Below are positions 31,261 through 64,000 of a stretch of DNA of 64,000 nucleotides, piece by piece. Position 1 is the stretch's first letter; each line of letters begins with the position of its first letter. The position numbers and the translations under genes are program-made. The stretch spans positions 64,950,984 to 65,014,983 of the forward strand of contig NC_088300.1 in assembly GCF_032854445.1 (NCBI RefSeq), in the 5' to 3' direction. The notes below the pieces were generated by a model. That model saw only the letters and a list, made by a program, of their open reading frames with translations. It was not told where the DNA came from and did not search any database. Origin of the DNA: Liolophura sinensis (Eukaryota; Mollusca; Polyplacophora; Chitonida; Chitonidae).

Positions 31261-31600
31261 GAAGAAATAATGTTCGCGTCAGGGTAGTCTAACGGTAGCC
31301 TGACATCAAAATCGATGTGGAAGAGTTTATATTTTAGGCCATTTTGTTTCTTTGTTTATATTTGTCGTCTGCTTTATTCAACGAAAACAACAAACTCTAT
31401 CCATCCATAGAACTACAATAGACCCGTCCAGAAGTCAAACGCTTCTGTCTCGTGATCGGGGCGTCTAACGACTTAGGTAATGTACACTTGGCACAATGTC
31501 AAGCCGTGCGTTGTGTGTAATAAAAAGGATTCGAATGGTAATAGAATACTCAATATAGGTTTATGTCTTTTTGCACGAAAGCGCTTTTCACATATTAACG

Positions 31601-31608
31601 TGACGTCA
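31601..31608. promoter_or_regulatory. Perfect CRE (TGACGTCA) upstream of the intronless ORF
   Basis: The palindromic TGACGTCA lies 48 bp upstream of the ATG at 31656. It is followed by GTGACGTCG and ATGACGCC, two further TGACG half-sites. This spacing and clustering suggests a CREB/ATF-type promoter. Motif evidence only. Confidence 0.45.
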
Positions 31609-31655
31609 TCTTTTCTATAGGTTATGGTGACGTCGCGGATGACGCCACAATCAGT

Positions 31656-32969
31656 ATGATGTCACAAACTCGAAATCCCGAAGTGAATCTATCAGAACGT
31701 CATGGCTTTGCGCACAGAAGAGAAGAGGACAGGCGGGCGGAGGCACTGTGCCCTTTACTGAGGAGAGCAGGCCGTGTTAACATCACGATGAAAATTGACA
31801 GGGTCAGGTACAATCGGCCTGGGCTGCCATCAGGAAACATGACGCCTCCTTCCCCAACGCCCAGAGACTTTACCTTTACTCCCACACAAAGACTGTATAT
31901 CCAGGACTACATCGCTAGGAGTGAGGTGAAATCTCCAGGCTGCCATCAGGTCAGGGACAACTTGCTGTTGTCACACCTCAATATAGCCATGACGGACAAA
32001 GAAAGGGCGAAGATGTGCCGGAAAGGACCCACATACGCCATTCAGCAGAAAGTTCTCGGGAGTGACCGATATGTGGTACCACAAACACGCCCTTTGGGAA
32101 GCTTGGTTGTCCAACAGATATCCCCGTGTCCCCCAGCGGAAAACAAGAGAGCAGCATCCGCCGCTCTCCCTTTAGAATGCCACGAGGCTAAACAGAAGAG
32201 TCCCAAATATGACAAAAGATATCGAAAAACTGGCCTTTTCAATCGCTTCCAACTGGACGCTACTCAAATTACCCTTCCATACGATGACCGTAGCAGCCTT
32301 CCCAAAACTTCCGAAAGGTTTGTCCATTTCGCCGAGAACATGCCTAAGGGGAAGTCTGGCGAGCAACGCTGGAATGGTCCGGAAGTTCATTACGCATGCA
32401 GACATCAGTTTGGAATGTCCTTCGAGGACAATAGAGATGCCGGGTCCTGTGGCTGTCCAACCAACAGGGCTGAAATGGTCCTGCCCAAGGTGGATCTGAC
32501 GTCAGCTATCGAGGACGGGGTTCGGGCAACCGTTCACGCCATACTGACAAACCGTGCCGCTTCCCCGCGACAACTGCTAAGCCAGCGAGAGCAAACCATT
32601 CTGACATTACTGAGTACGAGAGAATTCGGCGAGATAAAACCTGAAACCAAGAAAACACCACGGCGAGTGCAGATGAAGAGATGTCTAACGGCTCGCCCTG
32701 TCCAGGAGGTATCTGATGACTACGTTGATGACAGGCAACCTCGAAGCCCCACCAAGGACGCTGCCCCTGATACAACACGGACGAAGAGTCCCGTGCCGGA
32801 GCGGGCGACCTCACTGATGGACAAAGAGCCTGTTCCCGACTGTCATTTGATAGGATTCGATATGGGTCCAGCTGACAGAAGGGTACCACGATGTCCCAGT
32901 GCTCGAAGGTGTCCGAGCCCCCGGCAGAGCGTCAAAATGCAAACGTTTCAAATGACGATGCCATCATGA
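31656..32969 (+). CDS. Intronless 437-aa protein of unknown function
   Basis: One uninterrupted frame from ATG ATG at 31656 to TGA at 32967-32969. It is markedly more GC-rich than its surroundings, as expected of a real coding exon. The protein is basic and Pro/Arg/Ser-rich, with few hydrophobic runs, no signal peptide and no membrane segment. Landmarks: HRREEDRRAEALCPLLRRAG near the N-terminus; PPSPTPRDFTFTPTQRLYIQ at about 64-83; a short Cys-containing stretch GSCGCPTNRAEMV at about 263-275; a possible helix VDLTSAIEDGVRATVHAI; and an Arg/Ser/Pro C-terminus (CPSARRCPSPRQ). I do not recognise the family. It could be a lineage-restricted, mostly disordered protein. A CTATAG just upstream (about 31615-31620) could be a splice acceptor, so a 5' non-coding or coding exon is possible. 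Confidence 0.75.
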   Translation: MMSQTRNPEVNLSERHGFAHRREEDRRAEALCPLLRRAGRVNITMKIDRVRYNRPGLPSGNMTPPSPTPRDFTFTPTQRLYIQDYIARSEVKSPGCHQVRDNLLLSHLNIAMTDKERAKMCRKGPTYAIQQKVLGSDRYVVPQTRPLGSLVVQQISPCPPAENKRAASAALPLECHEAKQKSPKYDKRYRKTGLFNRFQLDATQITLPYDDRSSLPKTSERFVHFAENMPKGKSGEQRWNGPEVHYACRHQFGMSFEDNRDAGSCGCPTNRAEMVLPKVDLTSAIEDGVRATVHAILTNRAASPRQLLSQREQTILTLLSTREFGEIKPETKKTPRRVQMKRCLTARPVQEVSDDYVDDRQPRSPTKDAAPDTTRTKSPVPERATSLMDKEPVPDCHLIGFDMGPADRRVPRCPSARRCPSPRQSVKMQTFQMTMPS

Positions 32970-43000: not shown

Positions 43001-46000
43001 ATGTAAATACATGTCCTCAAAGGGAAAGATAACTGGGACAGTCCACATTTCCCATAAATCACAAGAGATTTAAGTTAAATTTTTTTTTTTAACTCTCCTC
43101 TGACATTTAGATGATTCATACTGCCTGTAAAACAAAAATTTAAATTGGAGTGGTCTCATACTTAAGGATGGAGGAAAACAAACAAAGGAATGCTTTACGT
43201 AGACTTAAATATGCCACCTCAATGGTCAATGGCTATAAACAGGTCAATAAATGTCTTGGTAGAAAGGGCAATTGTTTTTCTTATACAGATATTTACTAGA
43301 AATGTACCCACAGTCCCGTTTTCCATAGTAAAAGAAAAACTTTAAAACCATCCTGTGATAGTCACAGTTTGTAAAGTTACACAGTGTATACCACTTACCT
43401 AGCTGAGCACTTAGTGGAGCCAACAGACTGCTGGTTTCTAGCAACTGTGTAAGTCAGGTCTGAAAATAAAATAAAAAATTGTTAAGATATCACTTATAAT
43501 GATATCAGTCATTTGTGTAGGGTTACTCCACACTCTAATATGTGTATGATACAAGTCAGGTGAATTATTTTCACCACATTATAAAATAAAGGCATAAGAT
43601 CTGATTTATAAGTCACTCAGACAAATCTTTACCCTCTGTCTTTTAATATGGACCATTCACTTAATGAATGTGAAATGTTACAGCTACTGTAACATAAAAT
43701 TCGTGCACTTCGCTCGTACATGTCAGTGGCAAGCAGACGAACGAGGTGAAAAATAACATGGGAAGGTATAGGGAAATGAGCAACATTGGACGATACTCAG
43801 AGAAGTATGGCTAATAATAGTATGTAAGTCAACAGAACAATGTGCAGAGTGTATAAAAACTGTGAATGTCAACACAACCTGATTTTGGGCTTATGAGTTT
43901 TATATTAACTCCCATGTTATTTAAACTATGTTTTCAAAGCTGTGTGTGAGCGAGTATGCGTGTTGGTGCGAGTAAAACAGCAAATACCCACATGTTCGCA
44001 CTCTCGAACAGGGAGAAGTGTGCCTCCTTCTCTTTATACACATATGGTTCCCCATCTAGTTCCTCACACTCCACTCTGATTGGTGCACACACTCGCCATT
44101 TAACAGCTATAGATAATCTGACATTTCTATTTACAGATGAATGCATCACAAATGCATTCTGGCGAAAATGACAGTACTTGCTGACAAAGACACTGACACT
44201 TATGCAGACTACAAATTATTTCTCATAGTTCCTTGGCATTGCCTAGTGTATTTTCAGTAACATCACCCCAGTGACCTATCAGAGACCTAAATAGAGATAG
44301 TTATTTGTTTGGTGTTTTAATATTTCACTTATATGATGGTGGCCAGCATTATGGTGGGAGGAAACTGGGCAGAGCCTGGGGGAAACCCACGACCATCCGC
44401 AAGTTCCTAGCAGACCTCCCCACATAAGGTTGGAGAGGAAGTCAGCATGAGCTGGACTTGAACTCACAGCAGGAATACAGCTATGTGAACTGCCAAATAA
44501 TGTTGTGACAAGCTTCTCTCCATTTATGTACTTCTGATCACAGTGTATGTCTATATATGGCCTATAAAACATGCCACAAGTACTTTGTAGAAAGAGAAAA
44601 CATACCTCATGATTCAGCCAGGGTTCAGGTATGCAAAGGTAGCGGTTGAGACACCAAGTGGCTATAAGAGTTATTACTTACTAGTCATTTCTTTTTTTTT
44701 TTTTTAGCCGTGGACTGACTACTGGGCATTTATTCATATTTGTCACCACGCTTTTACACTGTCCCATGCAATGCCATGTGGTCTAGAGATGCAAAGGGCA
44801 TGGCTTTATACATTTTCACTTTGCATGCTTACATGTATACATTTCACAACACACTATAAATGCTTTTTTATTCGCTTGGTACTAGCATTCGTGGATTTCG
44901 TCGCAAACACATTTCCGCAAAAATAAAGGCCATTGAATATAAAACCCATGTAAGTAATTTATTAATGTAGCATGTGTTACAGTTATAATTCAAGCACTAC
45001 AGTTCTAATACTTTTTCAAATACTTAATTAGAAATACCTAATTAGAATGTTCACTCAAAGTTTCACTCACACTAGTGATGCATGAGAATTAAACAGTGGG
45101 ATTTATTTATATCACATTTAATCCTTCATCGTCTATCGGGGTGAGTGACACGAATATTTGCTCACACAGCAGGTAAGGGCTTCGTCTTATGAAGATTAAC
45201 AGTTTTCAAAAGATTAAAAGCTTAGGAGGATTAACTGCCTTTGTCTGATCAAGTTACTGTATTGTATAGAATTTTTGTCATATCGTACAAACAAGTTTAA
45301 ATGTTATTTGAATGCTTGAGTTGTTTTATTACTTGACGTTTCTGTATTTAAGTTTGATTTTTGTTTATCAATTGTCCAAAAATTCTGTTAAAAATTCTGC
45401 GAAAGTTGTTTCCTTCAAATGTGTCTTCTTACCAAATTCGCGAAAGTTGATGCCCGCGAATAAAAAGGCATTTACAGTAACCCTGATTACATGTATGGTA
45501 AACTGGTCTGATAGTATAGTTATAACTATATACAGAATAACTCACAATACGATGATATAACACAATGACCCCACCCCCTGCCCAACAACGCATGACTCTC
45601 GTAAGGTCAGGATAGATGAGAAGGCTATCAAAAAAAAAAAACTTTGTTATAATATGAGGTTTCAAAAATTTTACCCATTAAGTTTCTGCATGATATTTTC
45701 TATATTCTCTATGTAGCTATTAAGCCCGTAAAATATACTGAAGTTTCGCCATGGTATCTCATAAAAATGTAATACTTAGCATAAAAAATGTGAAAGTTCA
45801 ACATTTTATTATTACTATTTCCTTCATCAAAACAGCTGAATATCACATGGTCAGATTTAAGAGTTATCCCTGTGTACAGAACTGAAGTCCTCCAATTAGA
45901 AAACGACATTAAAGAGTATTGAAGCTTTACACACGAGAAAAAATGATGTTTCATTGTATCAATTTCTCTGCCGCACATAGAACATGAGGGAATGTCACAG

Positions 46001-49000
46001 AACATGAGGGACTGTCATAGAACATGTTAGTTTTACTAGTTTACTAGTTGCCGATTCTCTGTTTAATGTTCAATAAAAATATTTTGTACAGACTTTGGGG
46101 TCATTTATTGCTAACCTTCCAACCGCTGGAATTTCAACCTTATCCTTAGGTCTAATGGTACTTAACTGTACCTGTTTATTCGCAGGGAAAGAACTTAATG
46201 CTTTGTCCAACTTATTCCATAAATATAATTGTCATAATCAACACCGATTTTATATATAATATGTATGTCTCTTAACCATACAATTTTGCTTTCATTGTTC
46301 AGAACATCTCTGCTAAACACAATACCTGGTGATTACCAAGTATCAAAATATAACGACTTCCTGGAATAGAGGACATTTTTATTATCCCAAAGGATATGGT
46401 TAGCTGGTTCAATGTCTTTATTACTAATTTCCTCTTAAGCGTCTAGCATTAGTTCGTAGAATTCTGGTAACTTTATATTTAATTTGGATGAACTATAGCT
46501 ACAATAAAGAAGGAATCACAATCCTGTCCTGCTCAATTACATTGTTCATCATCAATTCCCAGTGACCAGGTTAGTTCCCAAACAAAAATCCTTATCTTAG
46601 TGAGCTTTAAAGTCTTAATCATAATACTACAATCTATTGGACTGACACCCAGAGCTGACAACTTATTTATCATAGCTATTCTTTTAATTTTATCCTTCTT
46701 GTTACACCCAATAAACTTAAACAGTTTTTGATTGATTTGAGTGCAGTAACCTATTACTTACTTGTTAGTTATTTGGCCCGTGACTTCACTCAGTTACCTT
46801 CACTTGCTCTATAGACAAATATAGACTGAATGTACTCACTGTTCACTGACTCTTCGTTGCCATCTGTCAGGACCACTTCTGCAGCTTCTGTACAAACTGC
46901 TGTCTGCAAATTGGAAACACTGACTGACTGACTGGGGTTTTAAAAATTTTTCACTCATATGATGGTGGTCAGGTTTATGGGATAAAGTAGGCCTAGGTGA
47001 CAACCTCCTGATGTAAAGCTGCAGCCAGAACTGTAAGAGCTGCAACCTCATTGGGTAAGGACCTCACAGTTGTAGCCAACCAGGGCATTTACCCCCTGAG
47101 CCAGCCGGGCCCCAGGAAATTTAAACAATGCCCTACACAAATGACTCATTCATTGTTTTGACTTGAGTTTTAAGCCATACTCAAGCAGCAAGCATTATGG
47201 TAGGAGATAACCTATGACAATCTGCAGGTTGCTGCCAGACTTTCCCAAGTATGAGTGGAGATTACGCCAGCGTGAGCTGGATTTGACCCTTTATAACTGA
47301 AATACCACAAACTAAATGCACGCATGATAAGTACTGTTGAAAACTATGGTTAGTATTATGAACATTTTTATACTATGAACATCTTACATTTTAAGAAGCT
47401 CTAAAGGAGATCCACAGAGAAACACGTCAAACTTCCTCAAAAGCGCTATGTGATTCTCCATTATGCAGTTTGTATTTTATTGCCTCACAAGCAATACCTT
47501 GTTGTCATTTTAAAAACCCACATCCAAAATGCATCCAATGAGATGAAAGAATGAATGAGTGGATGACTGATTATGGCTTTGTCACCTCAGCAGTATATCC
47601 CCGACAGTGACACTGCCTGAACCAGAAACCAGCATGTATGGACATATGGACATGCATGCATGCATGCCAAAATTTTAAGTACATGCACTTTGTTGTGTGT
47701 CTGTGTGTAGATTGAATAGTGGACTACGCACACACAGTTATGACAAGGTGGTTATAGCATCCTACTACGTGTAATGGTCATGAAGGGATGCTAGTGTTGA
47801 GTTACTGATATGCTAGTAGTGAGCTAGTGGTGTGCTACAGGTGAGCCAGTGGCATGCCATAAACTAGCACTCAAAATACTAACTGTCATATAACATCCGC
47901 AAATATTAAAAATTTCACTCATTCATAAGGCACATTTAACTTAATTTCTAGAAAGGGTAACCATGACTGATAACTTACAAACACGCCAGCTAAACAGGTC
48001 ATCCCTCCTCCAACTTCACAAACCACTTTGGACCTGCAAAGCAGAGTTGTTGTGAAATGAAGACCTATTTTATTCTTGCATTCTGTAGGTGTACTCAAGA
48101 GCATTTCTCTCATGAACGTATGATGATATTCACATTTATCATAGGAGGAAAGGCTTGGCTAACCCTGTACCTCACCAAGTCCTCGCCTAAAGCTGCAGCC
48201 AGTCTAGCAAGACTAGGTTTTGGACCTGCATCTTCTTCGGTCAATAGCTAAGACTTCAGGCAGAATCCTTAAACCACTTAGTCACCAAAGATCCCTGCAT
48301 TCACCAACCAAAAACACGGACCAAAGACAGCAAGACAAATAATGGCATTTCATTTCTTGTTCCACATCTTCACCCTCGAGACATAACGTTTGAAACATTA
48401 GTGAGTTTTATGACAAAGAAGAAAACAATAGTAATCATCACATCATAAATAAATAATCAAGGTTGGAGACAATAATCGTCTTGTGACATACATGGTAAGA
48501 GAATACAGGTTCTTGACACATTACATCACTGAGGTAGTCTGACACCAGCGACATGCAATGCACAGTAACCTGATCTGACAACTCCTAAAGCCAAGAAGAA
48601 CTAGACAGACATGTTCGCTTGTATGGACAAACTTTCCGTTGACGATTCAGAGAAAAATATGCTGGCAATATTCACAGAGTAAATTAAACAGGTTACATAT
48701 TAAGCAACTTTTTTTATCTGTCACAGAAGTGTATATGGATGTTGTGATCTGGTAAAATGTGAACAGGCGAATAATAATTTTGTGCTATTTAATTGGTCAA
48801 TTTTGGTTATACTGATTCAATTATTGTATTTGTCCTAAAATGTAGCTTATTTCTAGTGATACATTTTCCTTAATTCTGATTTGTTCATCCAGGGCCACTT
48901 AAGAGTTTCATGTGAAGTAAGATTTATTTTGTTATCAGAAAAAGTTATGTTTAAGGGATTTATGCTCTTCTGAAAGTCCATTTTTACACACCAAATTTTA

Positions 49001-52000
49001 GGTGAAATACGGTACCTGAAGTCTTCCCTGTGTTTCAGACAGTAATAAGCCATGACTTCTTCTGAGGGCCATACACCTTCCAAATAATAACAGAAATAGG
49101 AATATATTTCTTGAGAACATAATAAAAGTTATAGAACAGGTAGTTATCCTAAGTCACCAGACTTGGGAGCCCCATGCACACAATGGCTAACAGGAGCTGA
49201 AGGAGACGACTTCCACAGATGACGCCATTTGATGCCAAGTAAAGAGAATATTGTGGATGGCAACAGCAGGCCACTTTATATTGGCTTCTGTTCTTCCATC
49301 ATTTTTCCTTTTTGGCCAATTATCATCAAACTTTTGGCTCTACTTCAATACAATCATTATCAACTGTAGTTCCAATTTCCACCACATTTTAGGGCAATAA
49401 TCCAGCAGCTATCGGAAGCGTGAAAACAGAGAGGACAGTTATCACAGTTCACAGGACGCAGTACCGAGTGTGTCCACTGTTAGCATCATGAAGAGCATCA
49501 ACTGTGATTACCAACCACTCTGTTTTCATGCTGCCATAGCTCCTGGATTATTGCCCTAAAATGTGAAAATCTGGGGGACAATGACGCCACAATTAATACT
49601 GAGACAAAACAATATAAAAATGCTTTGTGCGTTTATATTTTTGTCGAGTATAGATATACTGCATTCAGCTTTCACCGGACAACTTTTGGATTTACTTCAA
49701 TACAACTGTATTTATGTAGCTGAAAGGAACAGCAAATTTTGTACACACTTCACCTTATTTATGTCGTACAATTGGTCTGCTCAGCACAGAATTCATCAAA
49801 TAATCTTCTACCCTTCAATCTAACTATATATACGTATAGCTTATGACAACAGCAATTTTCACACAATCTTCAGCTATTTTGTATCAAAAAACCTATCAGT
49901 ATGGGTTTTGTCAACATTATTGGTGAAAGCTACTCGATACAAGACTTCGTATGATGATAAAATTAAGAGCATGTTGTTAAAAATTTATTTATTTATTTGA
50001 TTGGTGTTTCAAGCCATACTCAAAAAATATTTCACATGTACGACGGTGGCCAGCATTATGGTGGGTGTAGTTGAAATTTTTGAATCCACTGCATATAAAA
50101 AAAACCAACAGCCTGGCATAAAAAAGCAGCTGATGACTCGATGAATGATATAGGATTCAGACCATACATGTAACTGTAGTATCTCAGGGATGTCATGTTG
50201 AAAACATAGCCATGCTCCTTCTCTTCAGATAATTGTGGGATTTTCTCGGTTTCCTCCCAGCAGAATGCTGGCTACCGTTGTATACAAATAAGTGAAATAT
50301 TCTTGAGTACAGCATAAAACACCAATCAAATAAATAAAATGGATAAATGAAAACATCCATGGTGATGACTCTCAGACATGTCAGATTACAATACCTGGAG
50401 TATCCCATACAATACTTAATATATAGCACACTGTTTAAATTATACATTTGGGCCTGATACAGGTCATTTTTGAACCTGTCAAAAGGGTTTGGGGGTCAGA
50501 AGTTCGGGAATCCAAAATAAAAAATTTTCACTGCGTTATTTGCATATGTAAAGGGTACCCAAACTATTCAGCTAAATCAACACCTGTTTATATATACACT
50601 TCCAATATTACAAAGATAACATTTAGGTACACACATGAACTTCCCTACATTCCACACCCAAAATACTTCAGGGAGAAAACTTTCCTGCTGAGCCAGGTGT
50701 AACTTACACACATTGCCTGTGTTGTTGAAGCCCAGCAATGTATCCAGTGTGACATTGCCCTGTAGTTGTCTGTAAAGAGAAGAACATAAGAAGTATGTGT
50801 TACTCGTGCAGGAATTCTTCATTTTCATATGCAGCTTTACCCATGTTATGATGCATTTGACAAAATCATGCGCTTACTTCTTGATCTCAACATACATGTA
50901 GACCTACCTCACAATGATTTTATATATATATATAAATTTTCTTTCTGTCTCTTTTTCTTCTGTATTACCCGTCATTTAGGTGAGAAATAATATATTTCAT
51001 CCTGACTCCAGGAGTATAAATAAAATGAAATAACCATTCTTTAATGTCACTTTCTGTAACCAACAGTAATTAATCCTCAAAAATCATGCAAGTATGTGAT
51101 AACTTACCTTACAAAAACTTACCTTAAGGGTCTAACATTATACAATGTTAGACAATGTATAATTGATGTGTAAGATAAAGTTTCACAACAAGACCCAGTT
51201 GTTCAAAAGTGTAGTAGCAGTTAAGTTTTGTATTAGGATAAGACTGGTTCTAAGATTTAAGCATGGCTTAACTTTTAATAACACTTCTGAACAACTGTCC
51301 CCAGGACCATAGGATCTAACATTTAGTACCAAAAAATAGGACAAAGAGGAATAACATGTGTAAATTATTAAAATTTAAGGAATTAGGATCTAGCTCAGCT
51401 CACAGATGGACATGAGAGTTCAACATAAAACTTAATACTGTGAGGTTAGGATTGTATTGTCACACCAGGATTGGAAATCAGGTATCAACAGCTGAAGTCC
51501 AGTGCACTACTGACTGAGTTGAGGGGAAATTCCCACTAGCTACTGCTGGTAGAAGTACTGGAAAGCTGCTCCCGCTGCATGATAATTTGGCCTCTTGCAT
51601 GTCCATACAATATTGCTGTTACACTCGATTTCTTGTTTTCCTGTCACCACGCACACACCATTTTAATCTGTCACAAATCTTGACATTATAAAAAAAAAAA
51701 GAAAATTCTTCTGCTGCCTGCATCAGTTTTCCAAAATACTGGGATGAGAAACAAGAAATTGAATGCCAATAGCCTCATGCTCACATTTACAAATACGGGT
51801 ATACCTGATAACACAGGAGATGTCCGCAAAATCCTTAGATGAATACTCAAGCCAGACAGAGTTGGAGTCTTTGCTAATCCCATCTTCATGAACTCTGACC
51901 TCCAGTAAGCCAAAGTTGTTGAAGCGGCGGACAGACACGGAGTTGTTTTCTGGGTCACTCAGATAATCTGGCTGACGAGTGATAACCTGGCAGAAGACAG

Positions 52001-52627
52001 TTAAAGTTAGTGTGGGTTTTAACAGGTAGCTCCTTAGTGAAAACTATGTATGCATCGTTGATTTATTCGCTTCTTTGATGTCTGTGGTGGTGAGGAAAGC
52101 ATATACATGCCTGGGATGATTTATTGCAGTTAACAACATTATATATAAACCTGTAATTACTGTATACAACATGACTTGTTATCCGTTTCATGCAATGTAT
52201 GCGTAAGGAGTTATATAGAGGATTCATAACTGAGCCATAAAGCTTAATCTCCAGTATTACATGTTTGCTGGTCAACTTAATTTTCAGGAGGGTACAGTAC
52301 GTATGTTTGCTGGTCCAGCTTAATAAATATTTTTCAGCTGAAGCATTGCTCGATGTTGCTTGCTGGAGAAGAAACATATAGTCGTAACTACGATCATTCA
52401 ATGCATCGACTGAAAATATAATGTGCCTTTCAATGCAGTAGAAATAGAATAAGTGAGTGTAAGACTTAGAAGATTGTAGACGCTTAACCTCTAAATAACA
52501 TTGAAAGAATAAGATCTGAAACTCCAAATAGAATGAGTTTATGTGCTCTGTACTTTGGGGTTAATTCAACCTGCGCAAGAAGCTTCCATCGTTGCCTAGA
52601 TATGGATATTTTGCCATTCTCTGCCAT
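40093..52627 (-). CDS. CAMKMT: Calmodulin-lysine N-methyltransferase, complete, 11 exons
   Basis: Exons on the minus strand, 5' to 3': 52571-52627, 51805-51986, 50708-50769, 49016-49076, 47979-48033, 46840-46903, 43399-43459, 42688-42762, 42301-42364, 41546-41674, 40093-40161. All phases agree; the CDS is 879 nt, 292 aa (human about 323). Shared with human CAMKMT: RWKLLAQ in exon 1; VSVRRFNNF; LLGFNNTGNVCVWPSEEVMA across exons 3-4, then YYCLKH; VCEVGGGMTCLAG, the SAM-binding motif I of seven-beta-strand methyltransferases; VVLTDGNEESV; LRWGPD; ILCADCLFFDEG; MFAPTRGNTFHEF; and the C-terminus ENLHYPVMLVLTKPMP. The enzyme trimethylates Lys115 of calmodulin. The start is the ATG in exon 1 (MAENGKISISRQRWK), shorter at the N-terminus than in vertebrates. 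The first exon faces the RING-fusion gene across 377 bp. Confidence 0.94.
44308..44470 (-). repeat. SINE, minus strand, CAMKMT intron 6
   Basis: Inverted tail (TTTCACTTATATGATGGTGG), body (GGAAACTGGGCAGAGCCTGG) and part of the head (GACTTGAACTCACAGC). Confidence 0.88.
45709..46740 (-). mobile_element. Degenerate LINE (non-LTR retrotransposon) 3' remnant
   Basis: The minus frame 45709-46005 encodes CSMCGREIDTMKHHFFSC, a C-x2-C-x8-H-x4-C pattern typical of the zinc-binding C-terminus of LINE reverse transcriptases. It is followed by DHVIFSCFDEG and MLNFHIFYAKYYIFM, which resembles the closing helix (LLxxAKYYIY) of the same proteins. Farther upstream to about 46740 the minus strand has related coding-like fragments (IKRIAMINKLSALGVSPI) broken by stops. 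It lies in CAMKMT intron 6 on the same strand. No intact ORF. Confidence 0.55.
46925..47060 (-). repeat. SINE-related fragment, minus strand
   Basis: TTTTTCACTCATATGATGGTGGTC resembles the inverted SINE tail; what follows (AACCTCCTGATG, GTGAGCC-like) is too diverged for a firm call. Confidence 0.35.
47155..47290 (-). repeat. SINE fragment, minus strand
   Basis: Words TTTTAAGCCATACTCAAGCA, CAAGCATTATGGTAGGAGAT, CTGCAGGTTGCTGCCAGACT and GTGAGCTGGATTTGA match the inverted body of the main family. Confidence 0.65.
49384..49564. repeat. 180-bp foldback element, CAMKMT intron 3
   Basis: ACATTTTAGGGCAATAATCC, AGCAGCTATCGGAAGCGTGA and AAACAGAG at the left return inverted as CTCTGTTTTCATGCTGCCAT, AGCTCCTGGATTATTGCCCT, AAAATGT at the right. 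Arms are about 48 bp with a few mismatches and a loop of about 85 bp. Probably a foldback MITE. Confidence 0.85.
49982..50068 (-). repeat. SINE tail fragment, minus strand
   Basis: Inverted tail and 3' body: TTATTTATTTGATTGGTGTT, CATACTCAAAAAATATTTCA, CGGTGGCCAGCATTATGGTG. Confidence 0.85.
50230..50345 (+). repeat. SINE tail fragment, plus strand
   Basis: GGTTTCCTCCCAGCAGAATG, AAGTGAAATATTCTTGAGTA and ACACCAATCAAATAAATAAA. It faces the minus-strand fragment at 49982-50068. Confidence 0.85.
51194..51302. repeat. MITE with CAGTTGTTCAAAAGTG inverted ends, CAMKMT intron 2
   Basis: CCCAGTTGTTCAAAAGTG at the left is answered by CACTTCTGAACAACTGTCCC at the right; inside, AAGATTTAAGCATGGCTTAA is partly palindromic. 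About 109 bp with no coding capacity. Confidence 0.75.
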
Positions 52628-53004
52628 TAAATGAGCGACCTAAAAACAAGCGGCTGTCAACGACCACTTTCGCTTTCCCGCTGGTATGCAAAGTTAATCG
52701 CATATTTGTAACCGCAGTTTCGAAAGCAATTTTTGTTAGAGTTTTTTTTTCCATAAATGCTGAAGTAAATGTCAATCACTTTGTTTTAAACGACAGGAAC
52801 TGTGTAACAAAACACCCGTTTATATTAGGGTACTTTTGTTGACAACAATATGGAATAGAAGTGCTAGATACGAAACTGCGGCCGTGGTTAAGGTTTTTAT
52901 GTGGGCAGATCGGTTTGACAGCTAGCACATTGTTCATTGTGATTTTTACTTACTTTGACATATGTTCACGTTTTCGAATAAGGCCTTCAGTTACTTTTAG
53001 CGCC
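52628..53004. promoter_or_regulatory. Shared promoter region between CAMKMT and the dehydrogenase-RING gene
   Basis: The start codons of the two divergent genes are 377 bp apart, so both promoters and 5' UTRs must share this interval. It contains TTTCCCGC (52674-52681), a perfect match to the E2F consensus TTTSSCGC, and ATGCAAAG (52687-52694), which resembles an octamer. No TATA box is obvious. The bidirectional role is inferred from layout. Confidence 0.6.
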
Positions 53005-56000
53005 ATGGTTAAAATCGCTGTTTTAGGATGTGGGCTAATGGGTGTCAAAATAGCAGGTAAGTTGTCAGAACTATGCATTTCATTTACGCTGTCTACTGCC
53101 ATACTGGCTGCATGTCTGTTGTTGGATTGTGATAGCCTGGCTATACTGTGCATGAAAGGCAAAATTTCTGACGATAAATTTAATTATTTTGAGGTATTGT
53201 GAGATAAGTTAAGAAAATAGACTGTAAACAGGTAATGAGTCGAAACAGAGTGTAAATAGGTAAGTATTAATAGGTCAGTGTATAGGCTACATGTAACTGC
53301 ATGTGCCCCTTTACATTGCGTGATTCTTTCACATGGAAACGTGTACCAGTGGTAATGATAATCATAATATTAATAGATCAAACCAGACGGTAGTTGTAAT
53401 CAGGTACTAATAAGTACTCATTTAAATTGTTTAAGCCCATATTTTTCTATCTCTGGATCATTAACATAATATGTGTACCATGTGATCAGTCAGTCATATC
53501 AAGGTTTCCATCATGGATATAAATAGACATTGAGTAAATGCTTTGAAGCCAGTCAAGGTTGAGTAGTTGAGACGAAGTTTTCTATATTTCTCTTTTTTTC
53601 GGTGTTCTTAATTGGGGCCTTGTTGGCAAAACAGCAGATAGCTAGTGCCCTCTTATGTGGCTATATGTATATGTTCATTGGAGGCAACTTGCCTACCACC
53701 TGTCTAACATATTCATGGAAGAGTTATATTAAAAACATAACTTGGCAAAGTTCATGTTTTCACTTGATATTTTTATATCACTGGCTGCTTCACTTTTGAC
53801 TTGTTTACACCTTAATTGCTATGTGCAAAATGTACAAAGAAAAAATACACCAGTAATGTGAATTATTATAGTTTGTTTATTATTGTAGGGGAGCTGGCAT
53901 ATCATGGACACCGGGTCAAGGTGTATGACTCCAACATGAACTCTCTGAACACAGTGTTCGAGAGGATGGAGGAAGACAAGCGCTACCTGCGAACTGAGGG
54001 ACTTCTGACTCATAAAAACTTCATTGTAAGGCATTTCTATACATGCAGCATAAGTCTGAATGTATTCCATCAGGAGCAAATTGATCAGGATTTGCTTTAC
54101 ATATAGCCTTATTCTTCAACCTTTTCAACCGCCTCTGCAACCAATATTTGGAAACATTCCGAGAGATCTATGGGGGGTTAGAGAAATAATTGCACAGTTT
54201 TATGAAGCTTGCGTATTTAATGACACGAACAAATCATTTCTAGCAGCATTGTCAAAATCAAATCTAGCTGTCGCTGCTTCGGCTGAGGCTTTATGTCAAG
54301 AGGTTTTGTTATATAGCCCAGCTCATGCTGGCTTCTTCTTCGGCCATACGTGGGAAGGTTTGCCAGCAACCGATGTGGGATTCCCCGGGCTCTGCCTGAT
54401 TTCATCCCACCATAATGCTAATTCCTGTTGTATAAGTGAAATATTCTTGAGTACGGCGCCAATCAAATAAATAAATAAATAAATGTAAGGTATTTAGCAA
54501 TTAACGTGGGCGTGCATGGCATAGTGTTCAACACCAGTCAGTCAGTTGTAGAATGTTGTGATACAGAGAGAAGACTTATCTAGATATTTCGGCTCTTTAA
54601 TTGTTCATTGGCTAAAACAGAATTATTACTCAGATAAATTATATTGTGATTTTTGGTATTAATTGTAATTAATTCTTTTTTTTTATTGTTACTTTAGGGT
54701 CAAATTTTATGCATGAGCCGTCTGGAAGAAACTGTCAGTGACGCTGATTTCATTTTTGAGGCAGTGGTTGATGACCTGGATGTCAAACAGGATTTATTTG
54801 AAAGTAAGTTAATAAGTATTGACCTACACCTTCAATGTACAAGTGTGGTGCAATAAATACTTAAAAGACAGCTTAACCTGAAAATGTGTTCTAGGGCTGG
54901 CTTGTATTTACTGAAAAGTTGAAGCCGCTGGCCACCCTTAACTGTTATGCTTACTCCATGTTATAGCTAACACCTAATCTCTTGGCTAAATGCATCTTTA
55001 GTGTTCAAGTTTTGCTTTTACCTGACTGTAATGACTTAAAAAACCCTATATATGTCCCATGAGTATGGCTTTAAATAACAATGAAATAAAATAAATAATT
55101 CTTCATAAGACTGAGTAGAGGCTTGTGTAAGTCTTTCAGCTCTTCACATTTCTATTGTGCATTGGTGTAAGAGCCCTGGGATAGTGACATCTCTCTTACA
55201 TTTTTTTTTTCATTTTAGTTTTTCAGCATGGTTTCACCTGTGTAAGAATAGCCACGCCTCTCTTACAACTCTTCTCATTTCTGTTTCTCAGATTGTCACA
55301 CTAGTGTAGGAAGGATGCTGTAATAGCCACACCTCTCTTACAACTTGTGTCATTTCTGTTTCTCAGATTGTCACACTAGTGTAAGAAGGATACTGTGATA
55401 GCCACACCCCTCTTACAACTCTTCTCATTTCTGTTTCTCAGATTGTCACACTAGTGTAAGAAAGATGCTCTGATAGCCACACCTCTCTTACAACTCTTCT
55501 CATTTCTGTTTCTCAGATTGTCACACTAGTGTAGGAAGGATGCTGTGATAGCCACACCTCTCTTACAACTCTTCTCATTTCTGTTTCTCAGATTGTCACA
55601 TTTGTGTAAGAAGAATACTGTGATAGCCATACCTCTCTTACAGCTGTTCTCATTTCTGTTTTTTAGGAGTGTCACACTTGTGGAAGAAGGATACTGTGAT
55701 AGCTATATCTCTCTTATAACTCTTCTCATTTCTGTTTCTCGGGAGTTTCTCACTGGTATAAGAAGGATACTCTGATAGCCACACCTTTTACAGCTCTTTT
55801 CTGTTTCTCAACAGGTTCTCACCTGCATAAGAAGGACGCTTTGTAAGTTACACCTCTCTTACAATTGTTCTAATTTTTGTTTCTCAGGAGTGTCTCACTT
55901 GTGTAAGAAGGATGCTGTGATTGCCACCAACACCCTGAGGCTGGATGGAGCTGCAGTTGTGGCGAGGACCTCATTTCAGGAGGTAGCTAAGTCAATCTGC

Positions 56001-58612
56001 ACATTGTGGTGTGAAGTACGGTACAGCACACATTACATGTATATTGTTTTGATGTCTCTGCACATGTAATTGTGTGACTGTTCTGTGAAGCTGGGCCTTG
56101 TTTATAATATATTCTATGATGTATACATGATGTGTATTAGAAACATACATTTTACTTGGTTAAAAAAAGAATTCACTTTTTTTCCTGATCTGTGTTTTAT
56201 GGCCTTTGCCTGTAAGTGCATGTCAGTAAAAAGCATTCTTGACATGTAAGGGTTTTTTTTATGTACCAGAGGACGACAGGTCTACGCTTCTTGTTTCCTG
56301 TCTATTACATCCCAGAGGTGGAGATCACACCTAACACCTTTACCTCCCCTGCCACTATTGAGAAAGGTAAGTGTTCATCTTGCATTTAACTGCACAATCC
56401 TCAGCAGCCCTGCTTGGGCTGTTTGCTACCGCTTCCATTGAATGGGTTGGGCAGGCTTTTACAAGGGGAGGCAACTCTCCCAATGAAGGAAGGATTTTTG
56501 GGGGGGAGGGGGGTGGCAGGGTTGATGACATAGTTGCCATACCCTCTGCAAGATTTCAAGGATATGTGTAAAGTTTTGTAATAAGCTTAGGTCATAGTAC
56601 ATATAGTAGGTATTTAAAATCAGCTGTAGCTTCTGCATTGTGGTTGGGTAGGTTGTTGGGTGGCAATTCGTGTCTAATTTGATTGACATGTGGACTGGAA
56701 GCCTCCTAATCATTAAGGAACATTCTGCCCTCCCAGAGCTGCTTTTGTTATGTTGTTGTTAATCACATGTGGCAGGTTTTGTCTTCAGTTTAGTAATGAC
56801 ATCACATCTATGCTGATAGTGTTTTATCTGTTGTGATGAGACTACTTCAATGGCCTAATGGTTAGAGCATCGGCCTCCAAGTTGGGAGACCGTGAATCAA
56901 ACCCTGGTCAAGTCATACCATATACTTTGAAAATGGTACTTGTTGCTGCCTCGCTTGGCACTTTGCACTAAGGTGTTATGCGGTGTGAGCATAATGTGAC
57001 TGGATGGGGTGTCATGCCTGGTGTCTTCAGCGTGATACTTTAGTTGTGGCAGCACTTTGAGGGCATAGACTCGCCACAAGGAGACAAGGTTCATGTATAT
57101 GTACACACCTAATGACTCTTGGTGATCATAAGACTTTTTAAAAATATTTTGAGTACAATGTAAAACCGCAAGCATACATTCTTTCACTGGCATGATCTAT
57201 GTTTCTAGTACGTCTATTATTGGAGAAGATGGGAAAAACTCTGTTCTTTCGATCTGGTGGAGAACCTTTGATTTTATCTGAGGATCAAAGAGAAGAAAGA
57301 AAGAGAGGTAAGTTTTGCGAAGAGAAAAAGCCCCTTGTTCATGGCTACACTGGTTTAGGGAATTCTGAATTTCCAGTTTTCGTTGTTATTTGTTCTGGCA
57401 TTTCACATCTGTGGAGCAAACTTTTAGTTAGAAACAGGGGTGAATGGGTATTCAGGTGTAGGCTATTTTTAGTTAGGCCTGGTGTTAACTTTAGCGAGCC
57501 TCCTTGGCCAAGGTGGTTAGCGTGCCTAGGGGCCTTTCACCAATGTGGTCACTGTGAGTTCAAGTCCAACTCATGCTGGCTTCATGTCTGGCCGTACATT
57601 GGAAGGTCTACAACCTGTGGATGGTCGTAGATTTCCTCAAGACCCTGCATGATTTCTTCCCACCATAATGCTGTCTAGCACTGAATAAATAAATCGTGTT
57701 AATTTCAGTCTGGATTTGACTGAGACTGATATGAAGCTTGACTTAGGTGTTAATACAGTTGCCATCAACTGACCAAGTGTATATGGCAGTTTGTGGAATG
57801 TGGACACAGCCTCCCTTAAACAGCTAAGGAACTACATGTTTGTGATTTAATACAGCTCCTCCACTTTCATTTGGACATTCCGTTGTTAAAATTGGTGTCC
57901 TGTCCTTCATCCCATTGTCATTTGTGCACGTTCATATATTGCAGCTCGACTGGAACAAATTAGAAACTCCAGTGGCATGACCTATTTTTTTTGAGAGCAC
58001 TCTGCCTGCTTTGTCTCATCGTGGGAACAATGCTCCACCCCCAGATGATGAAGAAGGTAAAGCAGGTTTTCTTTTTTTTTTTTCTAACTTGAAGTCCCCT
58101 AAAATTGCTTAAAACTTACTATGTCATGTAGACAATTGCCAGTATAAATATTCTTTCATTAGTGTATACTAGTAATGTCTCAACTCTTGTCACTAAGTCA
58201 AATATAAAGGCTAAAGCAATAATAACATAATCATATATCATCAGTTCTCTTTGTTTAATCCATAGTCTTTGTGAATATTTTTTTCTTACAGCTTTTTACT
58301 GTACTCTTATATACAGGGAAGTACATGTAGATGTAGATGTATCGTGTATTTTCAAGGTTTCAGTAGAAAAGCACTGTTGGGTGACCTGCTGTTGACTTAT
58401 TCAGTCATGTTTATTTCACCACAGTCGTGTACCGCAGTGAACACGATCATGACTGTGCCATCTGCATGGATCGAAATCGAGACTGCGTCCTCTGCCCTTG
58501 TCATCACATGATCACCTGCCACGAGTGCTCAAAAATGTTGCTGAACAGACGAGATGGCTGCCCTATTTGTAGGAAGGACATATCAGAGGTCATACCTGTG
58601 TACCTCTCTTGA
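53005..58612 (+). CDS. 3-hydroxyacyl-CoA-dehydrogenase-like NAD-binding domain fused to a C-terminal RING finger
   Basis: Exons: 53005-53056, 53889-54025, 54698-54803, 55888-55982, 56270-56366, 57209-57307, 57945-58056, 58425-58612; about 294 aa allowing for one extra base in exon 7. The N-terminus MVKIAVLGCGLMGVKIAG is a Rossmann start with GxGxxG (residues 8-13); VYD (D31) closes beta-2 as in NAD-specific enzymes; DADFIFEAVVDDLDVKQDLF and ATNTLRL follow the dehydrogenase pattern. Where HADH has the catalytic GLHFFNP, this protein has GLRFLFP (about 134-140). Only the N-terminal domain is present; the substrate-binding helical domain is absent. Residues 243-281 are a C3HC4 RING: C243, C246, C258, H260, C264, C267, C278, C281. 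The chain ends VIPVYLS. It is likely an E3 ubiquitin ligase with a non-catalytic nucleotide-binding domain. An in-frame upstream extension without ATG exists; the ATG at 53005 starts the fold correctly. Confidence 0.88.
54312..54486 (+). repeat. SINE, 5'-truncated, intron 2 of the RING-fusion gene
   Basis: Body AGCTCATGCTGGCTTCTTCT, CATACGTGGGAAGGTTTGCC, tail TATAAGTGAAATATTCTTGA, end AATCAAATAAATAAATAAAT. Confidence 0.9.
55196..55887 (+). repeat. Tandem array of the 3' splice site plus start of exon 4 (75-bp unit, about 8-9 copies)
   Basis: The unit is CTCTTACAACTCTTCTCATT, TCTGTTTCTCAG, then ATTGTCACACTAGTGTAAGA, AGGATACTGTGATAGCCACAC. Anchors fall at 55291, 55366, 55441, 55516 and 55591 (exactly 75 bp apart), with more diverged units on both sides. 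The last unit runs into the real acceptor at 55887 and exon 4 (GAGTGTCTCACTTGTGTAAG, AAGGATGCTGTGATTGCCAC), so each unit is a copy of the intron end and the first about 40 bases of exon 4. Most copies keep pyrimidine tract plus CAG, but the exon-like part contains TAG, so use of a decoy would truncate the protein. Confidence 0.92.
56847..57178 (+). repeat. Second tRNA-derived SINE family, near full-length copy
   Basis: The head TTCAATGGCCTAATGGTTAG is tRNA-like (A box), with a B-box-like GTGAATCAAACCC about 40 bp on. The body (GCTGCCTCGCTTGGCACTTT; GTCATGCCTGGTGTCTTC) is shared with 5296-5575. It is clearly different from the main SINE family. Confidence 0.75.
57493..57690 (+). repeat. SINE, internally shortened, intron 6 of the RING-fusion gene
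   Basis: Head GAGCCTCCTTGGCCAAGG, B-box-like GTGAGTTCAAGTCC, body GGCCGTACATTGGAAGGTCT and CCCACCATAATGCTG; the TATAAGTGAAATATT segment is deleted. Confidence 0.85.
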
Positions 58613-59629
58613 TGGCTGTCCAGTGGCCATATCACCTGGCCAGTATGTGTAGTAGTTGTCTGTGATATTTTAGAATTGTGCAGTATTTACTCCCTTCTAA
58701 AACAGCTAAAACACCTGACGTAATGGTTCCAGAATTTAAAGTATGGTAGAACACCCTTAGTTTCATGCAATTTTCCACACACTACTCACTACTTGAATGG
58801 GAGGGTGGTGAAAAGTTGGTGAAAACTCACATAAAATTTAAAGAGTGAAATAAAAAATAAAAACAACTAAGTAATAATGAAAAAAATAGGATGTCAGAAA
58901 TTTGAGGGAACGACTGACGAACGAACCGACAAACTGACTGACTGACATATAGTGACCTTAAATATAGAGCTGCTTTTTGCTGTTAAAAATATGTTAAAGT
59001 ATCTTGAGGTAAAGATTTCATTTTTTTTTCTTGTGATGAATTATTGGGATGAAGTTTTAGTGGCCTTTTCCTTGATGTATTGTTACTTTCATATATTTAT
59101 TTGACATTGAATACCACTTTTGTTACAGATCTAAACATATGTATATCCATCCCACAAATTTTTTTTTAGATTTAAACAACATCATATTTATCATCCAAAT
59201 ATCAAGTTATTCTTGTACCTTTTTGTTTAGCAATGTGTGAATAATTTCATAAGTATTAATAAGTTATAAGTATTACTTACATCTAAGCGTCTGATAGCAT
59301 TATGCCTTGTGTTGGTAAAATGTTGGTAGTATCAAGGATTGTGCCCAGTGAAGAATTGTCCCCAGTATTTAGAATAATTGTATTTTGTCTGTGGGATTTG
59401 AAGTGACATCACATGATGTGCCAGTGAGACAAAAAGCCGACAAATGTTAAATGGATAGAAAAGATCTCCACTGTAGAGCAGAGTTAATGAGCTGTATATA
59501 TCAGTATATTTGTTAGTGTGTAATGCCTGTCGGTTTTGTTTAATATAGTTATCAGTTAAAAATGTCAGTGCTTTTGTTATATACATGTATTATAATTGTT
59601 GCAATCTCTGGGATGCTGTTGTTATACAA

Positions 59630-59765
59630 ATTCTTTATTTATTTATTTACTTACATTTACTAATTCAGTATTTTACTGAAAATGTTTCACTTGTATGATG
59701 GGAACGACCCCAAGCTGTCCATTTCATGGCTGAAGGAAGCAGGGCAGAGCCCAGAAGAAACCACT
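59630..59765 (-). repeat. SINE fragment, minus strand
   Basis: TTTATTTATTTACTTACATT, AATGTTTCACTTGTATGATG and GGAAGCAGGGCAGAGCCCAG match the inverted tail and body. Confidence 0.7.
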
Positions 59766-60529
59766 GCACCTTGTGACATACACAGTTCCACTTTCACAAG
59801 TCCTTTTTTTTTTTTTTTTGCAAGAGACATGATTTATGAGAAAAGTTAAGAAAAACTGATTGACATATTTGTATGAAAGTGGGCCCAGAGTGACAAACCT
59901 CTTGAAAGTGTATAATTCTGATGAGGTAGTTGCATTGTTTCAATTTATTTGACCATATATTTGGTTAATTAGTTGATCTACTGCAGCTGATTGGCCCTTG
60001 ACTGTTTTAAGTCGTCTTCTCAAATACAGTTTCCACAAATTCCACTGAGTTTGAAAGTCAGAAAGTTTGTAAGGTTTCAGAGAAAGGACCTGGCATTCAC
60101 GGTTTCCTTCAGCAATAAACCTGTCCATCATTACACAAGTGAAATATTCTGCAGTACAGCCTTAAACCCCAAATCAAGTAAAACAGAAATGTTGATTCCA
60201 TATTACAGGATGTGCCTGGTGTTAACAACAAAGTGATAACATTGTACTATGATGTATTTTATCCTTGTTTTTTTGTGACATTTTTGTGAATAGATTAGAC
60301 TGTTTTGTTATTGTATACATGTATTACACTATGAGTGATAGGAGCCTCTCTTCTTTTCAGTACCATGTAGATTCAGTGAGGAGAAAACAGAAATCATATT
60401 TGAAAAAAATCATTGCTTGAATAATTGTACTTGTACCTTTCGTTGCAATATTTTTGTAGTAATATTAGAACACGTCGATATTTGTATCATGGCAACACAA
60501 AATCCTAATGTTTACAGGAGCAACTTGCT

Positions 60530-60655
60530 ATGGTCATGGGTTGCCTTGGTCTCTGCCCAATTGACTCCCACCATGAGGCTGGCCACTGTCGTATAAGTGA
60601 AATAAGAGTACTGCCTAAGACACCAATCCAATAAATCAATAAATAAAATGTATAA
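60530..60655 (+). repeat. SINE fragment, plus strand
   Basis: CTATGGTCATGGGTTGCCTT, GGCCACTGTCGTATAAGTGA and CACCAATCCAATAAATCAAT match the tail half of the main family. Confidence 0.75.
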
Positions 60656-60915
60656 ATAGATAAGAGGCATCCTTTCTCACACATGCAGTCTTGGATGTGG
60701 AGATGTAAGGCTGTCTTGCAAGACATTTACCGTACCTTCACTGCCATGAGAATGCAGCTGTTTGTAAAAAAATTTTAAATTCTAAGGAGAAGTTTGTACT
60801 ATAATTGACCACACAATTGATGCAACTTTGGTGATGTGACACAAACTTTCAATGACTTGCAGTTTCTTAATGGAGGATCTAATGTCATTAAGGCTTTAAT
60901 AAAATTGAAAATTCA

Positions 60916-63900
60916 AATACCTGTGTGTAGTTGTTTGATTCTCAAGTAACTTTCCAACGGTGAACTCTGGCAGAATGAACAAGACCTGTACAGCTTGTAC
61001 CTGAAATGCTTTAGGTTAGGAGAAGAAAAGACTATTGAAATGAATTCATGCAAACATTTCACAAAAGTGGTTTGCTTTTCTCCAGTTGGAAGAATTTTTG
61101 TGTGTCTGTGTTAAGCTCTGGCACTGTGGCTCATGAGAAGTGTAAACGGAAGGGACCAAATGAAAGTAATCTTTGAATGACACAGCTTTATTTTTACTGA
61201 CAACCAGCAAATGTGACTTTGTGCATTTACTCTTTCAAAGTTATTTTCCAACAAGTTGTAAGAATAACTATCATTTTTGACATTCTGATGATCAGCCAAG
61301 CCAGATGTACACTAGTTACTTGTGAAATGTATTGGAATGCCCTGCTCAAGAGTATTTAATTTTTGCTGATAGCAGTCGGGTTCCTGATTGATTGTGTTTT
61401 AATGCCAGACTCAAGACTGTCATGGTTACATGACATTGGTGGCCAGTATATTATGGGTGGAGAAAACCATAGATTTTCGGAAGGTTTTTCATTGGTGAAA
61501 TTTTCCAAGTGTGACATGTCATTTTGCTGGAAGGCAGGTGGTGGCCAGCAAACTTCATGTAAGGCTACATGATGCAACACTGGCGACCACATACAGACTT
61601 TTCCGAACTGTTAATCAAGAACTGGCAATCGACCAATCATAAGCAGTATTGTTACAAATGGGTCAACTGATGTGGGATACATATTGGTTTCTGATGTCAC
61701 AATTGCTTTCATCAGGAATGGAATGAAGAGTACGAGTCACAAGAAGGGGTGGGGGGCCCTTCGGATGTGTTGTATCCAACCAGTGCTATCAAGACCTCGA
61801 GAACCATGGAAGCAGGGGAATCTTGAAAATTCCATGTCGGTAAATTGTCAATAAATCTTGTGTGACACAGAGACTGAAGAGGAGAGCATCTTAACCACAT
61901 TGTGGTGAGTATAACCCTTGGGGGGAGTTTTCATGGGTGTTAATGACAGGCATGCGGTTACCATGACAACCGCACAAGTGGACAAATGTATCGACCACAG
62001 ATGAAAACTATGCGAAAAACAGTTGAAGTTATAGCCCCAATACGAAATCATTTCTATTTATATAGTATATATAAGGAAAATGGCTATGTGGTTACCAGGA
62101 CAACCGTGAAAATGGACAAACGTGAGTTGCTACACATCATCATCTGTGTACCTATGTATCCACTAAAAATTAAAACTGTACAAGGAAAACTTTAGGAGTT
62201 ATAGCCCAGACACGAATACGGATGAGAATTGTCAGTGGAGCTGCAGGATTTGCAAACCTCAATGGTTATCCTAAATTCTTGAACAAAATATTTAGTTTTT
62301 TGAGGTATATTACTATATCTTGAAATTTGGGTGAAGGGGAGACCTTGCAGGCCTTTGCAAGTCAGCACAACAAACCGCATCACTAAAACAGGGTTTAACC
62401 AGATAACATTAGCTCATCAGTGTCTCTTTTAACACGGTGGTTGCACTATTTTCAAGTCTGTAGTGCTGCCGCAGTGAACCATCAGTGAACAGACTGAACA
62501 TTGTGGGCGTAGTCCTGTCCCGTCAAGGCCGAATAACCAGCAAAGTCGGAACTAGGGCATACAGTAGGCACAATCTCAATGCTGTCAATCAAAACAACCC
62601 GACGGATTATCACTGTCTCACCTTTGTATCAGTTTACAAGGTACTGTAATTCTTCAACCCCTTTGACCTCTAAAGTTCATTTTTCAGTGGAATTTGTACA
62701 TACAGTTATACAGGAAAGTGGCGTCAAAAATGATTTCATTTTAATGTAAGCTTCATAAAACTGAGTGCAGTAGATTATTTCTCTATACCCCATGGTTGTC
62801 TGGGAACGTTTCAAAATATCGGTCACCGTGGTGGTAAAGAAGATTAAAGCATTAGGGTAATCATACTTTGTGCAACACAGCTAGTTTACCCATCAAAATA
62901 ATCAGTAGAAATTTGAATGGATCAGTTCTTAAATTTTGCACATCTAGATGGTGATGCCTCAACTTCTTCCTTATCACTGAACCTGTGTACCACTAAGAGT
63001 TCAAATCATTATAGCGTTTGCAATTTGTTGTGGCAAACTACAGTTTGAAGTCCTGAATATTTCTTTGTTTTATTTGATTGTTCTTTTGATTCAGTATTAA
63101 AAAATTACTCAATTACACGATGGTGCTTATGTTTATGGATGGAAGAATTGTTTAGAGTCAGAAGTTTGAAATCCCAAATGAAAATTTTCCCTTGGGAATT
63201 CCAGTATTTCTTGATCAGAATTCTGACCACACAAACGGCAAATCGGGTTGTGGAAATACTGAAACACACAAAAACAAAAACACCAGAAATTCTGTAAAGA
63301 CAGAAGGAAGTTTATTCACAAGCAGACGTCACCCATGATATCCCTGTGCCGACAAGGTCAGCGAAAAACCACTCGCCATCTGTAAGCTTTAATACACTAT
63401 AACAGCATTCATCATTAGTAATACCGACCATAGAATCAGCAGCAAAAGCGAACATGCAAAGCGAAAGCAGAGGACTATATGATCAAAATTCAAAACAAAG
63501 ACTGGCAAGATAACAAACTGCATATTTAGGACGTAGATTTCTTACAACAAGCCAGTTTCTTTGTTTTTCAGGAAACTATAGTGCTCCATATAGTGCTAAC
63601 ACCGAGAAACTATCCTCTGTCATGGATTATACATTTGTTCCAACATTATCACAATCAATCAATCAATCGACGCACAGAGTCAGATGGGGATGACTCTTCC
63701 AAGCTTAATCATGACCTGGGCTAGAGCAAAACAAAATGGCCTACAAACCTTATCTTGCTTTGGTCAATGCTTTAGAAATCAAGGATTCAAAAACTCACTG
63801 GGCAGTGAGAACAATTCAAGTAGTCTACCACTCATTTCTTTACATAAATAAAAATTACCCCCCCCCCCCCCAAAAAAAAACGAAAAAAAAAATTCTCTGT

Positions 63901-64000
63901 GTACATAGCTTTGAGTTTTTTTTCTTGCCTAAATTTAACTGCCTGCCAAGAAAAGAAATTCAAAAAATTGTTAAGAATTCACTAAGTCTTACATTTCAAT
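60916..64000. other. Intergenic region; no gene recognised
   Basis: No exon with a recognisable product is seen. It contains a decayed SINE-like stretch (61365-61575), an imperfect 130-bp tandem duplication (61955-62220), CAAT tetranucleotide repeats near 63650 and a poly-C/poly-A run near 63858-63890. The short open frames here have no family features. Confidence 0.5.
61955..62220. repeat. Imperfect tandem duplication with X-box-like words
   Basis: The two copies share GGTTACCATGACAACCG / GGTTACCAGGACAACCG, then GTGGACAAATG / ATGGACAAACG, and GTTATAGCCCCAATACGAAA / GTTATAGCCCAGACACGAAT. The unit is about 130 bp. The first copy contains GTTACCATGACAAC (61957-61970), which fits the RFX X-box consensus RYYNYYATRRNRAC. 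Confidence 0.55.

Follow-up and report, generated by a model that had tools for sequence, protein, structure and literature searches.

A predicted chiton gene joining a dehydrogenase-like NAD-binding domain to a C-terminal RING domain

A predicted eight-exon gene

We analysed a 64,000-nucleotide stretch of the Liolophura sinensis genome (contig NC_088300.1, positions 64,950,984 to 65,014,983), referred to here as the window. The assembly, GCA_032854445.1, was published as Liolophura japonica (PMC11068029), and the name has been corrected to L. sinensis (PMC12441733). On the plus strand, we rebuilt from the sequence a fusion gene at 53005-58612, with its start ATG at 53005 and its stop codon at 58610-58612. 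An earlier note on this DNA had proposed eight exons over this interval, and we found GT-AG borders at all eight, whose lengths total 886 nt.

Exon 1 (53005-53056) carries the ATG in the context GCGCCATGG and encodes the dinucleotide-binding GxGxxG loop, MVKIAVLGCGLMGVKIA. Upstream of this ATG, the frame is open from 52843 and holds no further ATG. Exon 2 (53889-54025) encodes Rossmann strand 2 with VYD (Asp31), and the Rossmann domain continues with DADFIFEAVVDD in exon 3 (54698-54803), IATNTLRL in exon 4 (55888-55982) and GLRFLFPVYYIPEVEI in exon 5 (56270-56366). The end of the domain and a charged linker, EDQREERKR, lie in exon 6 (57209-57307), which has the donor GAG/GTAAGT. Exon 7 (57945-58056) is a linker exon of 112 nt as assembled. 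Finally, exon 8 (58425-58612) encodes a C3HC4 RING, the C-terminal tail SEVIPVYLS and the stop codon.

The same note had described the exon phases as consistent. This holds for exons 1-6, but exon 7 breaks the frame, where a run of eight T leads into a TGA. When the window was simulated with a first-order Markov model, an exon of any of the seven lengths used had a 2-14% chance of an open frame. The two domain E-values given below, together with exons that are open in the required frame, are more than chance would give.

The N-terminal half is a dehydrogenase-like Rossmann domain

The Pfam search identified 3HCDH_N (PF02737), the NAD-binding domain of 3-hydroxyacyl-CoA dehydrogenase (HAD), at residues 3-173 (E 2.7e-37; 128.9 bits against a cut-off of 22). 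The alignment covers positions 1-173 of the 180 in the profile, almost the entire domain. This is the Rossmann domain type assigned by the earlier note, and both motifs named there, GCGLMG and VYD, are present. The note had also stated that the helical domain of HADH is replaced by a charged linker. We likewise found that the residues after 173, where EDQREERKR of exon 6 lies, have no match to PF00725, and neither protein piece (211 aa and 87 aa) matched this helical 3HCDH domain in Pfam. A genome-wide search gave four PF00725 matches, none on C6, a negative that is weak alone because this exon-by-exon approach can miss weak exons and, when used for PF02737, omitted this gene's own exons.

We compared the catalytic positions with those of known enzymes. 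In HAD, His158 accepts the substrate proton, Glu170 anchors His158, and Asn208 belongs to the dimerisation domain (PMC10988713). In FadB2, the equivalent of Ser137 is essential and the dimer is formed by the helical C-domain (PMC6333283). For human HAD (1f0y), the assignment was made from match coordinates, which span the same length in both proteins and place Leu115 (exon 4), Arg136 and Glu148 (both exon 5) at 137, 158 and 170. The rat MFE1 alignments agree, in that its Ser, His and Glu face the same three residues; given an inferred 20-residue chain offset, those facing Arg136 and Glu148 would be His431 and Glu443. The catalytic Ser137 is therefore Leu in the window protein and the catalytic His158 is Arg, while Glu170, the partner of His158, is kept as Glu148.

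The bacterial relatives keep Ser, His and Glu at these positions in 10/10 cases, although the set holds three near-duplicate pairs (L007/L009, L010/L011 and L012/L014), so that the independent cases number fewer than ten. In contrast, Gly8, Gly10, Met12, Gly13, Asp31, Glu84 and Asn113 are identical in the window protein and in 10/10 of these relatives. We take Glu84 and Asn113 to belong to the NAD site, and an Asp that follows strand 2 speaks for NAD(H) rather than NADP(H). Compared with the HAD NAD-binding domain (PF02737; human HADH 1f0y, rat MFE1, bacterial 9fbd), the window protein thus shares the GxGxxG loop and the equivalents of Met26, the strand-2 Asp and Glu170, but has a linker and a RING in place of the helical substrate and dimerisation domain.

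Controls from the same genome were less uniform. Of five HAD genes (L001-L005), three carried the Ser motif (L001, L004, L005) and two of these three also the His motif (L004, L005), whereas L002 and L003 showed neither by the motif patterns. A looser His pattern applied to L001-L003 gave one match, in L003, which resembles a chance hit, and tblastn of the window domain against all five gave three short exon matches (L001, L003, L004). Since L002 and L003 may belong to another HAD subtype, the bacterial set served as the main control for the catalytic residues. Furthermore, among the NCBIfam models for HAD, the best score was that of PRK08268 (96.9 bits, where the cut-off is 508), and none of the best 25 of 68 families reached its cut-off.

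The change of His158 to Arg and of Ser137 to Leu, the missing helical domain, and the retention of Ser and His in 10/10 bacterial relatives indicate that the Rossmann half is very probably a pseudo-dehydrogenase, whose NAD site looks kept and whose chemistry looks lost. Of the two ligands suggested in the earlier note, NAD(H) is plausible from the kept motifs. An acyl-CoA-like ligand is less likely, because the searches turned up no substrate and dimerisation domain and because Leu and Arg stand in for the catalytic Ser and His.

The C-terminal half is a RING with an aromatic tail

The C-terminal C3HC4 RING proposed earlier was recovered by the domain search as zf-C3HC4_3 (Pfam E 1.9e-14). All eight zinc ligands are present, in the right order and spacing, and an Arg after the last zinc Cys presumably occupies the linchpin place. 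The nearest solved RINGs were those of XIAP and cIAP1/2 when the 87-aa piece was the query, and those of MUL1, cIAP1 and MEX3C with a 58-aa query. The alignments with cIAP1 and cIAP2 reach the last residue and that with MUL1 the last but one, whereas those with XIAP stop before the tail. In the tail, VIPVYLS of the window protein aligns with VIPLYN of MUL1 and VRTFLS of cIAP1, and the Tyr of VYLS faces the tail Phe of cIAP1 and cIAP2, Phe616 in cIAP1. This Phe616 packs on the donor ubiquitin in trans, from the other subunit, and a tail Phe or Tyr is common to BIRC7, RNF4 and MDM2-MDMX (PMC6349121). It is a natural reading that the window RING would likewise be homodimeric and active.

In Pfam, neither of the two protein pieces matched a BIR, UBA, CARD or MUL1-type domain. 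The window protein shares its zinc ligands and short aromatic-bearing tail with the zf-C3HC4_3 C-terminal RINGs of MUL1/MAPL and of the IAPs (cIAP1, XIAP, BIRC7), but differs from them in carrying a HAD-type Rossmann domain. The MUL1/MAPL family carries a MUL1-type intermembrane domain and two membrane helices. MEX3C and MGRN1, whose RINGs are among the structure matches, are examples of single-subunit RING E3s that unite a recognition domain and a RING in one chain, as here; the difference is that the recognition domain of the window protein would come from a former metabolic enzyme and would bear a nucleotide site.

A frame break in exon 7

The T8 homopolymer of exon 7 lies at 57985-57992 and runs into an in-frame TGA that starts at 57992. 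The assembled sequence thus encodes a product of 211 residues, made up of the 3HCDH_N domain and the charged linker, before it stops. In its second half, exon 7 is open solely in a different frame, which continues into exon 8, and this half together with exon 8 encodes 87 residues including the RING. The phases of exons 6 and 8 are compatible, and skipping exon 7 gives one open fusion of 257 aa. Loss of a single base at any of 16 of the 886 exon positions would also give one open frame through to the RING stop; this is a count of positions and makes no claim that any base is wrong.

We considered alternative splice sites as a rescue of exon 7 and rejected them. Although 39 donor/acceptor pairs are formally open (donors 57215-57899, acceptors 57800-58055), only two use the GTAAGT donor at 57307, and these leave an exon 7 of 12 nt or 3 nt (acceptors 58045 and 58054). 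The remaining 37 rely on other GT donors. Exon skipping or a different length of the T run is therefore simpler. Since the frame is open on either side of the run, an ordinary coding exon that differs in run length is suggested. The assembly report gives 14x HiFi coverage and a heterozygosity of 1.24% (PMC11068029), which leaves scope for a consensus slip or for an allele at this site. Exon 7 is probably either a skipped or optional linker exon or one whose homopolymer length is wrong or allelic in the assembly. A second haplotype or a paralogue of the gene was also rejected, since the exon-7 DNA has one match in the genome, its own locus, and both protein parts match their own gene best.

One gene or two, intact or broken

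We hold with high confidence that the NAD-domain and RING exons, judged from the sequence, form a single gene. The phases match across exons 1-6 and from exon 6 to exon 8. There is no Met ahead of the RING in the open frame of exon 8 (58385 onward), nor in the second half of exon 7, and a RING without its own upstream Met needs an upstream coding exon. It is quite unlikely that the locus holds two adjacent genes instead, a truncated HAD-like gene that ends within exon 6 or beyond it, and a RING gene with an unseen first exon. The read-through of exon 6 stays open until 57630, and AATAAA occurs at 57684 and 57688, as such a division would have it; yet AATAAA and ATTAAA are frequent locally (17 across 53000-61000), so that the polyadenylation argument is weak. 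Moreover, two genes would fit poorly with the GAG/GTAAGT donor of exon 6, with the lack of a Met in the exon 8 frame, and with junction phases that, the T run aside, suit one coding unit. The fusion claimed in the earlier note is thus supported by the sequence, but the frame break in exon 7 needs explaining.

That break might be real and regulatory, with exon 7 as a poison switch that yields the 257-aa ligase when skipped and a RING-less 211-aa protein, or decay, when included. Exon 7 is bordered by AG and GT, exons 6 and 8 join in frame without it, and its inclusion puts the stop 62 nt before the last exon junction, a position at which the transcript as assembled would suit nonsense-mediated decay. 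However, the second half of the exon is open in the exact frame of the RING, as in a plain coding exon that differs in T-run length, and the coverage and heterozygosity cited above allow for a consensus error or an allele. We consider this switch unlikely. There is a similarly small chance that the gene was broken recently, the fusion having once existed and its RING having been lost by a frameshift in the present allele or species. The in-frame TGA of the assembled exon 7 speaks for such a loss, but T run aside the 886 nt of exons can be translated in a single frame up to the stop of the RING, with GT-AG at the borders, the RING beyond the break retains its eight ligands and tail, and skipping exon 7 still yields an intact fusion. 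Least likely among the rivals is an active NAD-dependent acyl-CoA-type dehydrogenase with an attached RING that sets its level or its partners. The N-terminal domain is clearly HAD-homologous and keeps Glu170 and the NAD-loop residues; the Arg and Leu in place of His and Ser, and the absence of any detected C-terminal substrate domain, the carrier of Asn208, led us to rule out this highly improbable candidate.

Copy number and relatives

Whole-genome searches found one copy of the fusion gene. All six genome matches of the 211-aa part fall within its own gene, and among the 37 matches of the 87-aa part, identity exceeded 52% only in two, both from its own gene. With a single copy found, there is no paralogue to show that the architecture has been kept. 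We also compared by eye the genome-wide matches listed for the two domains, at least 129 for zf-C3HC4_3 (150 of 304 candidates scored) and 21 for 3HCDH_N (a search of limited sensitivity, which missed this gene's own exons), and found no pair within 100 kb.

In bacterial genomes, 86 pattern stretches led to the ten confirmed relative loci, with 27-32% identity. Plasmids gave 635 records, each below 60% identity, and viral contigs gave no relatives, with one pattern stretch that was unconfirmed.

The earlier note knew of no standard family with this domain order. We compared the order with papers, PDB, Pfam and NCBIfam. Among the literature matches listed, titles and abstract openings describe neither an NAD-domain-RING architecture nor an NAD-linked RING ligase, and '3HCDH' and 'zf-C3HC4' co-occur in no paper. 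The word 'dehydrogenase' is absent from the main text of a study of oyster IAP architectures (PMC8917759). The novelty of the NAD-domain-RING architecture is provisional.

Proposed function

To our reading, there is about an even chance that this one chiton gene encodes a single-subunit dimeric RING E3 with a dead NAD(H)-binding domain as its docking or sensing module. By sequence, its N-terminal module is the NAD-binding half of 3-hydroxyacyl-CoA dehydrogenase with the catalytic Ser and His replaced. The RING and its tail would mediate dimerisation and recruit E2~ubiquitin, and the dead Rossmann domain, probably loaded with NAD(H), would provide the docking surface that selects the substrate. 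More speculatively, nucleotide occupancy or redox state could switch docking or the RING dimer. Such nucleotide-gated activity is attractive but unsupported.

RING ligases usually recognise their targets through protein-binding domains. If the proposal is true, the recognition part of this ligase would be a domain retired from a metabolic enzyme, with a nucleotide pocket that looks intact, and there would be a direct, testable path from NAD(H) level to protein degradation. A broader version, which we regard as doubtful, would posit an animal E3 lineage whose dead dehydrogenase domain reads NAD(H) and gates RING dimerisation or docking, thereby linking redox to ubiquitination, with the exon-7 switch giving a RING-less form. 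The proposal is narrow and can be checked: for this species, RNA-seq data from five tissues are public under PRJNA973839 (PMC11068029), sampled from a different individual than the genome, and the HiFi reads are SRX20411988.

Exon-edge tandem arrays and surroundings

Intron 3 contains a tandem array of 9.1 copies of a 75-bp unit (55248-55927, plus strand), which extends 40 nt into exon 4. Each repeat is made up of the polypyrimidine tract, the 3' splice site and the opening ~40 nt of exon 4, and the last unit forms the real exon border. None of the nine upstream AGs listed with a pyrimidine-rich tract is in phase with exon 4 (0/9), and seven of them run into a stop when read in the frame of exon 4. 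A comparable array of 38.3 copies of a 45-bp unit lies in another HAD gene (L004:1980-3689, on C14), where the unit comprises a 3' splice site and the beginning of the exon that follows, coding VGMHYFSPVDKMQ. With six HAD-domain genes examined, the presence of exon-edge minisatellites in two of them hints that such a process recurs in this genome.

The surroundings of the gene gave few matches. Neighbouring open reading frames had no Pfam match at E 0.01 (10 of the 30 window ORFs of at least 105 aa were scanned), and a 456-aa open frame at 31599-32969 on the plus strand likewise had none at this threshold. Rfam gave no match within 44000-64000, and the window contains no tRNA. Elsewhere in the genome, a 3HCDH_N-containing gene occurs in three tandem copies at C1:50569240-50593696. 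At C8:37880506-37891931, we observed eight consecutive molluscan haemocyanin beta-sandwich domains, whose individual open frames are 429-529 aa long.
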